Of a stretch of 33,734 nt of DNA, positions 4,619-27,170 are shown in pieces. Position 1 is the stretch's first letter; the number at the start of each line of letters is the position of its first letter. This DNA comes from Bacteroidales bacterium (GTDB lineage Bacteria > Bacteroidota > Bacteroidia > Bacteroidales > Marinilabiliaceae). The notes under the pieces are model-generated. The model was not told where the DNA came from, made no database searches, and was given only the letters and a program-made list of their open reading frames with translations. The position numbers and the translations under genes are program-made. Location: NCBI GenBank assembly GCA_022361295.1, contig JAKSBD010000174.1, positions 1-33,734 on the forward strand, read 5' to 3'.

Positions 4619-6007
4619 ATGAATAAAACTTGCCGAATAGTCAATCTGCAAGATGAATATAGCCAGTTATTCAAAGAGAATCTGTCTCTTTTAGAAAATG
4701 GTGCACCCAAAAGAATGAATGAAACAAGGACCAAAGCCTTTGAATCATTCATAGACAAAGGGATTCCATCCAATAAGGTTGAAGAATATAAGTACACCAA
4801 TCTGCAACCTTACTTTAAAGGCTCGTTTGACATTGCATTTGATTCAAAAGCAGCCATTAACGGCTCTGCTGACAAATTTAATTGCGGTGTTCCCAATCTG
4901 GATACTTACAACATCTTTTTAATTAATGGCTGGTTTGCACAACAAGATGAAGCAAGTGCATTACCTGATGGTGTAATTATTGGCAGCATACGCGAAAAAG
5001 CCAATGAGCACCCTGAATTATTTGAAAAGCATTACAACAGCAATGCGCCTGTCGACAGTGATGCCATGGCAGCCATGAATACTGCCTTCGCACAAGACGG
5101 AGCTTTTATCTATATCCCGAAAGGCATAGTGGTTGACAAACCCATTCAGTTAGTCAACATCATGACTGGTGATAATGACCGTCTGGTGTTTCAACGAAAC
5201 CTGGTTATTGTTGAAGATAATGCGCAGGCCAAAGTCATGCTTTGTGACCATACCATTTCTCCACAAAAGTTTGTTATCAACAACCTGACAGAAGTTTTTG
5301 CAGGTGAAAACAGCGTGTTTGATATATATAATATACAAAATCAGCACAACCTTACGACCCAGGTGTCAGGTATGTACATTAAGCAAAAAAAGCACTCAAA
5401 CGTACTTTCCAACAGCCTAACACTTCATTCGGGGGTAACACGTAATAACATCAGGGTTAATATGGACGATGAACATTGCGAAAGTCATGTTTATGGACTT
5501 TACCTGAGTGATAAGAACCAACATGTTGACAACTACTCTTTTATCGATCATGCAAAGCCGCATTGTCAAAGCTTTGAGCTATTTAAAGGAGTTATGGACG
5601 ATTCTGCTTCAGCAGCTTTTACAGGTCGTGTACTTGTTCAGCCTGATGCTCAGCAAACCAATGCATACCAAAGTAATAACAACCTGCTGTTAACAGATAA
5701 TGCGAAAATAAACAGCAAACCTCAGCTTGAAATTTATGCCGATGATGTTAAATGTAGCCACGGCGCCACGGTTGGTCAGTTGGATGACGAAGCCATGTTC
5801 TATTTAAGAGCGCGAGGTATTAATGAAAACGAAGGACGCATTTTATTAATGTTTGCTTTTGCATATGAGGTTATTGAGAAAATAAGAGTAGAGCCATTAA
5901 AAGAAAACATCAGAAGTCTTGTTGAAAAACGCTTCAGAGGTGAATTTGACAAATGTGACTCATGTGTTGTTTGTGGCCAGCAAGGAACTAGTGTAAGCTG
6001 TTTGTAA
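4619..6007 (+). CDS. sufD: Fe-S cluster assembly protein SufD
   Basis: 462 aa; SufD core (HGATVGQLDDEAMFYLRARGI); Cys-rich C-terminus KCDSCVVCGQQGTSVSCL. Confidence 0.95.
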   Translation: MNKTCRIVNLQDEYSQLFKENLSLLENGAPKRMNETRTKAFESFIDKGIPSNKVEEYKYTNLQPYFKGSFDIAFDSKAAINGSADKFNCGVPNLDTYNIFLINGWFAQQDEASALPDGVIIGSIREKANEHPELFEKHYNSNAPVDSDAMAAMNTAFAQDGAFIYIPKGIVVDKPIQLVNIMTGDNDRLVFQRNLVIVEDNAQAKVMLCDHTISPQKFVINNLTEVFAGENSVFDIYNIQNQHNLTTQVSGMYIKQKKHSNVLSNSLTLHSGVTRNNIRVNMDDEHCESHVYGLYLSDKNQHVDNYSFIDHAKPHCQSFELFKGVMDDSASAAFTGRVLVQPDAQQTNAYQSNNNLLLTDNAKINSKPQLEIYADDVKCSHGATVGQLDDEAMFYLRARGINENEGRILLMFAFAYEVIEKIRVEPLKENIRSLVEKRFRGEFDKCDSCVVCGQQGTSVSCL

Positions 6008-6128
6008 ACTAAAAAATAGGTTCATTAAGAACCAGGCATATTGATTCTTACCTCAAAGACACAAAGAACACAAGATCATCCTCTTGGTGTACTTCGTGTC
6101 TTCTTGGTATATTTAAACACCATGAACA

Positions 6129-7349
6129 ATGACTATTAACATTGAGCAAATACGTAATGATTTTCCGATTTTGAATGAGCAAGTTCACGGTAAACCTTTG
6201 GTCTATTTTGACAATGCTGCAACAACACATAAGCCACAGGTAGTGATTGATGCCGTATCAGAGGTATATCAGAAATACAATAGTAATATTCATCGCGGCG
6301 TTCACCATTTAAGTAATGTGTGCACACAGGCACATGAGAATGCCCGCCTCAAGGTTCAGGAGTTCATCAATGCCAAACACTCTCACGAGGTAATTTTCAC
6401 CCGGGGAACAACCGAATCAATTAACCTTATTGCATCTTCCTTTGGTGAAACCTTTTTAAATGAAGGGGATGAGATTCTTGTTAGTCAACTTGAACATCAT
6501 TCAAATATTGTCCCATGGCAGTTACTGGAAAAACGCAAAGGAATAAAACTACGTTACATCCCTATCAACCAGGATGGAGAGTTAATAACGGACAATCTGA
6601 ATGAGCTGATAAATGATAAAACCAAGTTAGTTTCAATTGCTCATATTTCAAATGCATTAGGAACCATCAATCCAATTAAGCAGATTATCGACCTGGCACA
6701 TAGCAAAGATATTCCGGTTTTAATTGATGGTGCCCAGGCCATTCAGCACGTTAATGTTGATGTACAAGCCCTTGACTGTGACTTTTATGTTTTCAGCGGC
6801 CACAAATTATATGCTCCTACGGGAATCGGTGTACTATACGGAAAGGAAGAGTGGCTTAATAAACTGGAACCATACCATGGTGGTGGTGAAATGATTAAAA
6901 CAGTTTCTTTCGAAGGAACCACATTCAATGAGCTACCGTTTAAATTCGAAGCCGGCACACCTGACTTTTCAGGGTCTGTAGGACTTGGCGCCGCAATTGA
7001 TTACGTGCAATCAATAGGACTTGACAACATTGCAAAGTATGAGCATGAACTATTGGAGTATGCAACAGAAAAACTTTCGAATATTCCGAACATTCGCTTT
7101 TTTGGAACTGCTAAAGAGAAAACCAGTGTCGTTTCCTTTTTAATAGGAGATATTCATCCCTTTGATCTGGGAACCATGCTCGACAAAATGGGCATTGCAG
7201 TGAGAACCGGACATCATTGTGCTCAACCGTTAATGCAGTTTTTCAACATTCCGGGAACGATCCGTGCTTCATTTGCTATTTATAATACCAAAGAAGAAAT
7301 TGATAAGCTTTGCGAAGGCATAGAACGCATTGCTCAACTGTTTGGCTGA
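6129..7349 (+). CDS. sufS: Cysteine desulfurase SufS
   Basis: 406 aa; PLP lysine motif FSGHKLYAPTGIGVLYG and active-site Cys region RTGHHCAQPLM. Confidence 0.97.
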   Translation: MTINIEQIRNDFPILNEQVHGKPLVYFDNAATTHKPQVVIDAVSEVYQKYNSNIHRGVHHLSNVCTQAHENARLKVQEFINAKHSHEVIFTRGTTESINLIASSFGETFLNEGDEILVSQLEHHSNIVPWQLLEKRKGIKLRYIPINQDGELITDNLNELINDKTKLVSIAHISNALGTINPIKQIIDLAHSKDIPVLIDGAQAIQHVNVDVQALDCDFYVFSGHKLYAPTGIGVLYGKEEWLNKLEPYHGGGEMIKTVSFEGTTFNELPFKFEAGTPDFSGSVGLGAAIDYVQSIGLDNIAKYEHELLEYATEKLSNIPNIRFFGTAKEKTSVVSFLIGDIHPFDLGTMLDKMGIAVRTGHHCAQPLMQFFNIPGTIRASFAIYNTKEEIDKLCEGIERIAQLFG

Positions 7350-23917: not shown

Positions 23918-24280
23918 ATGTATACTTTTGTTTCGATATTAGTAATCTTAGTAAGTATCTTTTTAATCCTTATTGTTTTGGTTCAGAACTCTAAGGGTGG
24001 TGGTTTAGCATCAAACTTCTCATCACAAAACCAGGTGATGGGTGTTCGTAAAACAACTGATTTCTTAGAAAAAGCAACATGGACAATGGCTACTGCTTTA
24101 TTGGTATTGTCATTTGTAGCAGTAATGGTATTGCCAAAAGGACAGATGACCGGTGCTGAAATTGATGAGAAATTAAACACTTTACCATCACAGCAGCAAG
24201 AAATGCAGGCTTTCCCTTCTCCTGCACAAGGCGATGAAGAAGCTACTACAGAAGAAGCTCCTGCTGAAGAAGGCAACTAA
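23918..24280 (+). CDS. secG: Preprotein translocase subunit SecG
   Basis: 120 aa; LIVLVQNSKGGGLASNFS between two hydrophobic segments. Confidence 0.93.
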   Translation: MYTFVSILVILVSIFLILIVLVQNSKGGGLASNFSSQNQVMGVRKTTDFLEKATWTMATALLVLSFVAVMVLPKGQMTGAEIDEKLNTLPSQQQEMQAFPSPAQGDEEATTEEAPAEEGN

Positions 24281-24302
24281 TCACTAAGATTTAAAAATAT
24301 TA

Positions 24303-24334
24303 AAGAGGAAATCCGTTTGGGTTTCCTCTTTTTC
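24303..24334 (+). terminator. Terminator of secG
   Basis: AAGAGGAAATCC-GTTT-GGGTTTCCTCTT followed by TTTC. Confidence 0.8.
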
Positions 24335-24659
24335 GTTTAACCGTTTTATTTCAAAGAGTTTTAACGGTTCACGCACAGAAGTTGGGTCTGATCTGGAATT
24401 CAGTAGAGTGATGCTGCTGCTGTTTTAAGGTCAGATAGAGACTTGTTTAGTTTTAATTCTCTACATAATCCATACGCTCACCCCTTCCAGAGATGATATA
24501 CACAAGTCAGTTTACCACCGACTTCAATGGTGATTATTCATGTTATGTCCATTCAGGACCATTAAAATGTTAATATCACTTACTGAAAAATCCTATTTTA
24601 CAATAATAGCTGTCTGAGGATAAAAAAGTTGGAATTTAAAGATCGACATCCAAAAGTTT

Positions 24660-24747
24660 CTTTGGCAATTCTTACCAACTTCTTCGGCATTGCATTGAAA
24701 CTGCTTCGGGACAACTTCGGGTCCGCTTCGGATCAACCTCGCTGTCA
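24660..24747. repeat. 11-bp periodic CTTCGG-type tandem repeat, about 8 degenerate units
   Basis: CTTTGGCAATT/CTTACCAACTT/CTTCGGCATTG/CATTGAAACTG/CTTCGGGACAA/CTTCGGGTCCG/CTTCGGATCAA/CCTCGCTGTCA. Confidence 0.75.
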
Positions 24748-24768
24748 GCGAGGTTGATCCGAAGCGGA
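24722..24768. repeat. Perfect 47-nt fold-back palindrome (23-bp arms, 1-nt centre)
   Basis: TCCGCTTCGGATCAACCTCGCTG-T-CAGCGAGGTTGATCCGAAGCGGA. Confidence 0.97.
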
Positions 24769-24956
24769 TACCTTTCAGACTACCGGAAGGTACTTCCTTA
24801 ACAGGAACCTGTCAGCAGTACCACAAGTCAATATTTAGATAATTACGTAACGCATTCCTCTGCCCTTTCACGCTCTAAAAAATCCAATGTTTATTGACAA
24901 TGATCATCTATACACTGAATCCACATATTGAAATAAAGGCGAATGTATCATTATCA

Positions 24957-25102
24957 GCCTGTCATGGCACCATGTCACATGACAAGGCTAAACAATCCAT
25001 CTGCAATTTTGACCTTGTATCATTCTCTTCATGTCAGTCATCTGCAAAAAAGTCAGTGAAACTTATAAAAATATGTCATAAATTGCTTTGGCATACTTTG
25101 TG
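24957..25102 (+). promoter_or_regulatory. Putative groESL regulatory region
   Basis: TGTCATG...CATGACA inverted pair (24960-24984), further TGTCA at 24973, 25032, 25074, then TTGGCATACTTTG (contains TACTTTG, a TAnnTTTG-like box) about 50 nt before the groES ATG. Confidence 0.45.
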
Positions 25103-25151: not shown

Positions 25152-25430
25152 ATGTCAGAATTAAAAGGAAGAATCTTAGCCGGCAAAATTTTGGTTAAGC
25201 CTCAGGCAGCTGAAACAACAACAGCAAGCGGAATTATCATTCCTGATTCAGCCAAAGAAAAACCATTACAGGGTGAAGTTGTATTGGTTGGTGATGCTAA
25301 AAAAGACGAAGCTATGGAAGTGAAAATTGGTGATACAGTATTGTATGGTAAATACGGTGGTACTGAATTATCAATCGAAGGCGAAGACTACTTGTTGATT
25401 TCACAATCTGATGTATTATACATCCTTTAA
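25152..25430 (+). CDS. groES: Co-chaperonin GroES
   Basis: 92 aa; GRILAGKILVKPQAAETTTASGIIIPDSAKEKPLQGEVVLVG. Confidence 0.98.
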   Translation: MSELKGRILAGKILVKPQAAETTTASGIIIPDSAKEKPLQGEVVLVGDAKKDEAMEVKIGDTVLYGKYGGTELSIEGEDYLLISQSDVLYIL

Positions 25431-25502
25431 TAACTAAAATACTGGTTTAGTGGCAGATTAAGCTTCTGCCTACTACCATACCGCGATAACTATTGCGACT
25501 AA

Positions 25503-27170
<1,668 letters not shown>

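Follow-up and report, generated by a model that had tools for sequence, protein, structure and literature searches.

An 11-bp-phased array folded into a perfect palindrome upstream of groES-groEL is one of eleven intergenic copies in a Bacteroidales genome and resembles arrays upstream of DUF6266 genes

Results

The window, by which we mean the whole stretch of 33,734 nucleotides analysed, carries secG (23918-24280; Pfam SecG) and, 871 bp further on, the groES-groEL operon on the plus strand (25152..27170, with groES at 25152-25430; Pfam Cpn10 and Cpn60). The original prediction gave this gap as about 870 bp. It contains the secG terminator (24302-24331) and an array on the plus strand (24660..24744), defined from the sequence, the positions of exact CTTCGG and the lag-11 score. 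The array has eight unit starts in 11-bp phase, at 24660, 24671, 24682, 24693, 24704, 24715, 24726 and 24737. It had been described as about eight CTTCGG units. The phase is real, but the exact word stands on the plus strand in only four of them (24682, 24704, 24715 and 24726), and the other half are degenerate (CTTTGG, CTTACC, CATTGA and CCTCGC). Self-similarity at lag 11 is 40/66 in the 1-kb tile of the array, and none of the window's 32 remaining tiles reaches 36.

As had been proposed, the array folds back on itself, through a perfect palindrome at 24722-24768 (no strand assigned). Its 23-bp arms, TCCGCTTCGGATCAACCTCGCTG and CAGCGAGGTTGATCCGAAGCGGA, enclose a single T, and both the arms and the loop were exactly as predicted. 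The fold has a z of -7.9, and none of 200 shuffled sequences equalled its stability. The palindrome is not a simple secG terminator, a point already made in the original prediction: secG has its own terminator, and the sequence directly after 24768, TACCTTTCAG, offers no T-run behind the stem. Rfam covariance models gave no match above the gathering score in the window.

We searched the whole genome (6.04 Mb in 739 contigs, 96% complete) for related sequences. Two phased CTTCGG units with at most one mismatch matched 30 times per strand, compared with 4 and 7 matches for a reversed-pattern control. The arrays fall into two large families. Family A, to which the window copy belongs, has 11 copies of the core GGATCAACCTCGCTGnCAGCGAGGTTGATCC (up to three mismatches, whole genome) against none for the control. 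Family B has about nine copies with the centre CTACGCGCGTAG. The palindrome is therefore not unique, and the repeat family expected here and in other Bacteroidota exists. Isolated half-sites of the core outside the 11 copies were not found at up to one mismatch; only weak two-mismatch matches appeared. All family-A copies, scattered over the chromosome of this marine bacterium, are intergenic and non-coding. Their neighbours lie in every relative orientation, divergent pairs included, and the nearest sizeable flanking ORF is at least about 230 bp away. The genes downstream include groES-groEL and others that, read from the sequence, we take to be pyrH, carA and a beta-glucosidase. The gene on the promoter side is co-oriented in 23 of 28 copies, which is suggestive only. 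Apart from DUF6266, a few neighbour families recur beside solo copies. Two family-B solos (L043 and L045; contigs C646 and C91 of this genome, G000) share an ORF start, MKLNRTVA.., just past a promoter-like motif, possibly a leader peptide or a remnant.

Alignment of the family-A copies reveals a common anatomy. The inner 37 nt of the window palindrome, TTCGGATCAACCTCGCTG-n-CAGCGAGGTTGATCCGAA, correspond to the family-A core, which in nearly all copies is a perfect and unusually strong palindrome. Identity between copies is about 95% in the core and 25-60% in most flanking stretches. The perfect arms had been taken as a sign of recent formation. This is unlikely, because old, diverged copies carry the same 37-nt core, which is conserved and not of recent making. 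The extra 4 bp of arm look like a coincidence: beyond the core, the two arms of one copy match each other no more closely (0.355) than arms taken from different copies do (0.350). With these equal values, we rejected compensatory change as the force that keeps the hairpin.

From motifs conserved among the 11 copies (left TTTnACAATAATA, right TTTTGATAAATACAA), we place the window element at approximately 24596..24846 on the plus strand, about 250 bp. Its left-edge motif, TTTTACAATAATA (24596..24608, plus strand), is conserved in most family-A copies and by eye resembles, on the minus strand, the Bacteroidota -7 promoter element TATTATTG. To the right of the palindrome, folding and alignment define a short second hairpin, ACCTTTC...GGAAGGT (24770..24791, plus strand; ACCT...AGGT in family A). 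It is followed by a degenerate, putative promoter motif directed at groES, TACTTCCTT (24791..24799, plus strand), which we recognised by comparing the copies by eye; other copies have the TAnnTTTG-like TACTTTTG at this position. The element closes with the conserved block AATATTTAGATAATTAC (24830..24846, plus strand), the counterpart of TTTTGATAAATACAA in the other copies.

The closest relative, G011, differs at this locus. In a blastn comparison of the two intergenic regions, similarity stops at 24339 (100%) and restarts at 25001 (90%), leaving 24340..25000 (no strand assigned) without a counterpart. Although groES is 98% identical, the G011 gap has no array and holds a different stretch of 127 bp, so that it is not a clean empty site. 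In other members of the genus, where the compared region is correctly oriented, the secG-groES gap is much shorter. The G011 gap (L141) has an imperfect inverted repeat of its own, CGCTGATTTCGCAGATTAACGCAG ... CTGCGTTATCTGCGGGAA, and that of G009 (L142) contains CGAAAATCTGCGTTATCAGCGGGAA, related to the G011 repeat. Because relatives hold a different inverted repeat at the same site, the gap seems to take up small repeats repeatedly.

Arrays of the same architecture are spread over Marinilabiliaceae, and other families of Bacteroidia have them sporadically. Of 71 genomes from the bacterial family, 21 contained a fold-back pattern built from four TTCG/CGAA words, some of them more than 20 times, while controls gave 0-2 matches. 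A stricter version matched in 7 of 393 genomes across the phylum, among them members of two additional families (f50, f63); one of these matches (G445) looks like chance or coding sequence. The family-A core is also present in a named relative, Carboxylicivirga sp. A043. Two G014 copies have 84% identity over a sharply delimited 319 bp. The G014 copies and family B follow a common plan: behind the array come a stretch that is AT-rich or forms a hairpin, an operator-like palindrome (TGACGGTAATATTACTGTCA; ACAATGCATGCAcTGTCATTG), a spacer of about 20 bp and a TAnnTTTG-like motif. We recognised the TAnnTTTG-like motifs by eye and read them as putative promoters from the Bacteroidota -7 consensus. 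Plasmid and phage collections yielded no homologue of the element, and the plasmid collection no array. In viral-collection contigs, matches were mostly chance or coding, with one convincing array.

Clustering of the proteins encoded near arrays brought out one conspicuous recurrent family, DUF6266 (PF19781), a connection that the original prediction had not made. We searched for PF19781 in 41 genomes and scored the surrounding DNA for self-similarity at lag 11, independently of any motif, with a threshold of at least 36/66. An array lies within 1 kb upstream of 42 of the 55 DUF6266 genes and downstream of none; because the genomes were partly picked for having arrays and the genes are related, 42/55 is not a phylum-wide rate. 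The other 13 genes have no array at this threshold. At lags of 9, 10, 12 and 13, the upstream regions of 0, 1, 0 and 0 genes passed. Among 107 control stretches two passed, and both are the window's own array, met once upstream of groES (1/14) and once in the window tiles (1/33); flanks of Y1 genes gave 0/60. A class-wide draw found PF19781 in 15 of 247 genomes and added arrays before three further DUF6266 genes in two other families (L329, score 54; L338, 41; L333, 38). A conserved DUF6266 subgroup in other Bacteroidia (L323-L328) has no array at threshold.

Two layouts recur. The first places the array about 400-1000 bp upstream; operator- and promoter-like motifs come next, then a small membrane-type ORF whose tail is basic, and finally DUF6266. 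The second has no small ORF, and some 100-330 bp separate the array from DUF6266 downstream of it. The units vary by locus (TTCGG, AAACTCA, AAAGTCA, or TTCAAAG of the TTCAA type), the 11-bp period is constant, and many arrays have inverted arms. The operator-like palindrome ACGGTAATATTACCGT upstream of DUF6266 operons (L160-L164, L168 and L169 in G014; L265-L275) is conserved between genera, and within it lies TAATATTAC, the nonanucleotide known from rolling-circle origins.

Both families of the genome under study have a gene-linked member. On contig C317, a family-B array (about 5046-5253) precedes a small ORF and DUF6266 (5827-6408). On C221, a co-oriented protein of 245 aa starts 370 bp downstream of a family-A core (L050:409-1146). 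It is a divergent DUF6266-like protein, found with our own DUF6266 profile (E 3e-19) and missed by Pfam PF19781, so annotation probably underestimates the size of the family. A third DUF6266 gene (C714) has an 11-bp array of the TTCAAAG type. Between the solo family-B copies and the C317 upstream region, colinearity extends over the array, the operator-like palindrome and the promoter-like motif; homology stops soon after. Family-A solos have tail sequence in common with the C221 copy. A profile scan beside the examined solo copies, that of the window included, found no DUF6266 remnants other than the linked genes.

An AF2 model of DUF6266 (pLDDT 90.4) comprises N-terminal beta-hairpins, two helices and a C-terminal FN3-like sandwich. 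The closest PDB structures for this sandwich are FN3 domains (E 2.5e-3), and viral matches of similar E are FN3 or tail proteins. The model contains no transposase fold, which disfavours a transposase as the predicted role. The C317 protein had no match in phage and plasmid collections. The small ORF (about 67-100 aa; 13 aligned) is conserved directly upstream of DUF6266, for example at L319:1714-2016, L265:2111-2365 and L269:1209-1460, and in others. It had no significant match in Pfam, NCBIfam, PHROG or PDB, and as a candidate holin it had insignificant PHROG matches only.

Folding was compared across both sets of arrays. Most family-A copies have z values from -3.8 to -12, and roughly half of the arrays linked to DUF6266 are significantly more stable than their shuffles. 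In the linked arrays, the two strands fold equally (mean z -2.2 and -2.4). Arms pair at 0.57 in exact register and only slightly less well, at 0.51, when shifted by one unit, a comparison in which selection bias favours the exact register. This small difference, like the lack of covariation outside the core and the equal folding of the two strands, speaks against an RNA hairpin as the main function; the latter two results favour a function at the level of DNA. In addition, the nearest promoter-like motifs recognised by eye are downstream of the arrays, between array and gene, and the array would therefore fall outside the mRNA.

Discussion

Our data suggest, with roughly even confidence, that the feature upstream of groES belongs to a dispersed intergenic element, of which it is a solo copy without a gene, that its class is an inverted 11-bp array normally located upstream of DUF6266, and that the array binds protein as DNA. 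The array would then be a row of predicted binding sites, one per helical turn, on both sides of a dyad. A DNA-binding protein would assemble on it along one face of the DNA, beside the promoter; we predict such an assembly because the constant features are one motif per helical turn, often facing the centre, next to a promoter-like motif. Solo copies might arise when trans-acting machinery copies the upstream module away from its gene. In the window, the module lies upstream of groES-groEL with its tail directed at them. A row of direct sites alone leaves the perfect family-A core without explanation; the core may serve as a central site of greater strength, or gene conversion may keep it. 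Against this reading, neither terminal inverted repeats nor target duplications were identified in the element copies, whose ends are approximate, and G011 offers no clean empty site. The stable folding of about half of the linked arrays also counts against it, as do the 13 of 55 DUF6266 genes and the L323-L328 subgroup that have no array at the threshold.

Alternatively, the array could be transcribed and its long stem could act as an attenuator, a stability element or a dsRNA-like trap, which we consider improbable. Eleven base pairs make one turn of an A-form helix, the window fold is very stable, as are most family-A copies, and about half of the linked arrays beat their shuffles. The structured RNA suggested in the original prediction keeps some probability. 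It fits less well with the equal folding of the two strands, with the lack of within-copy covariation outside the core, with the absence of an Rfam match in the window, and with promoter-like motifs, spotted by eye, that would leave the array outside the mRNA. A Rho-independent terminator or transcription-insulating hairpin would account for a strong GC-rich stem in an intergenic region. We regard it as highly improbable, for the stem has no T-run, secG is already served by a terminator, and other family-A copies separate divergent genes, a setting that calls for no terminator.

The remaining alternatives concern the origin of the copies. The element could be an ordinary selfish MITE/REP-like repeat, with the array serving only as the site bound by a transposase from another locus, and DUF6266 nearby as cargo or by hitch-hiking. 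The copies are indeed dispersed, intergenic, multi-copy and non-coding, their presence differs between relatives, and the two similar G014 copies have sharp limits, where no target-site duplication was recognised. The G011 site carries different DNA. Copy alignments show no shared inverted ends, although the element ends are only approximately defined. The Y1/REP-type transposase proposed earlier was not found: the Y1 (RAYT) family PF01797 has no match in the genome, and the 30 Y1 loci of relatives are all free of arrays over about 1.5 kb. In addition, the arrays lie upstream and never downstream of DUF6266 in several bacterial families, which is not what cargo alone predicts. We therefore consider this reading unlikely. 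Somewhat less probable still is that the solos are remains of whole DUF6266 loci whose genes have decayed, the array itself being little mobile. The operator- and promoter-like motifs retained in solo family-B copies and the tail that family-A solos have in common with the C221 copy agree with such relics. The profile scan beside the examined solos, in contrast, found DUF6266 sequence only in the linked genes, and the family-A core is not simply decaying, because its identity of about 95% is kept while the flanks decay. The solo, DNA-level protein-binding element remains our preferred explanation.

Several known systems have one or more of these properties. The parC centromere of plasmid R1 consists of 11-bp direct repeats bound by ParR, next to a promoter. 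The window array is similar in its 11-bp units, that is, one predicted protein site per helical turn, and in its nearness to a promoter-like motif recognised by eye; unlike parC, it is chromosomal, inverted about a centre and dispersed. BOX elements of Streptococcus pneumoniae are modular, non-autonomous and intergenic; the number of their internal units varies, and their stem-loops are stable. The window element is modular in the same manner, whereas BOX has another unit length and sequence, no dyad array and no associated gene family. REP/BIME elements, which come with RAYT (Y1) transposases (PMC3733652), are likewise palindromic, intergenic and multi-copy, but here there is an 11-bp period, no Y1 gene in the genome and none near an array in the relatives. 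Among described elements, the nearest is the BrickBuilt MITE of Porphyromonas gingivalis, with 19 intergenic copies in one genome, a 23-nt tandem unit (AGAYCATARTATCCTCTCRTRTG) and TIRs of the IS5-family type (PMC4596501). Like the window element, it is an intergenic multi-copy element of Bacteroidota with internal tandem units, long stem-loops and no encoded transposase. Instead of 23-nt units with IS5-type TIRs, the window element has 11-bp TTCGG units that face each other, and no TIRs were found. BrickBuilt has promoter activity, while promoter-like motifs were recognised here by eye only; DUF6266 linkage is seen here, and the passages of PMC4596501 consulted link BrickBuilt to no protein family.

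More tentatively, and with less than even probability, the arrays and DUF6266 may together form an undescribed gene-plus-array system of Bacteroidota, in which a promoter-proximal inverted 11-bp array keeps its geometry while its unit sequence diverges, and solo modules upstream of host operons (groES-groEL, pyrH, carA) would be portable regulatory or nucleoprotein-assembly sites. In a literature search of partial coverage, which makes the novelty provisional, we found no paper that names DUF6266 and none that describes the array architecture or its link to DUF6266. The motif-independent upstream array is a first handle on this uncharacterised family, and it predicts a DNA-binding partner for DUF6266 loci together with a testable promoter architecture. 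A geometry that stays constant despite sequence change is unusual among promoter elements, and binding in helical phase can be tested directly. The solo copies suggest that the upstream module spreads on its own, and since it sits beside essential operons it could rewire host regulation.

Two further sets of arrays were noted in the searches. The convincing viral-collection array is an 11-bp fold-back array with units CTTCGCTGTGC / CGAAGGAAAAG (L242:7300-7393; IMGVR_UViG_3300037400_001217) and no DUF6266 nearby. G016 (L060, L074, L078, L082 and L086) carries CTTCGGTGTAG/CTTCGGCGTGT tandem arrays at several loci, mostly without the fold-back pattern.
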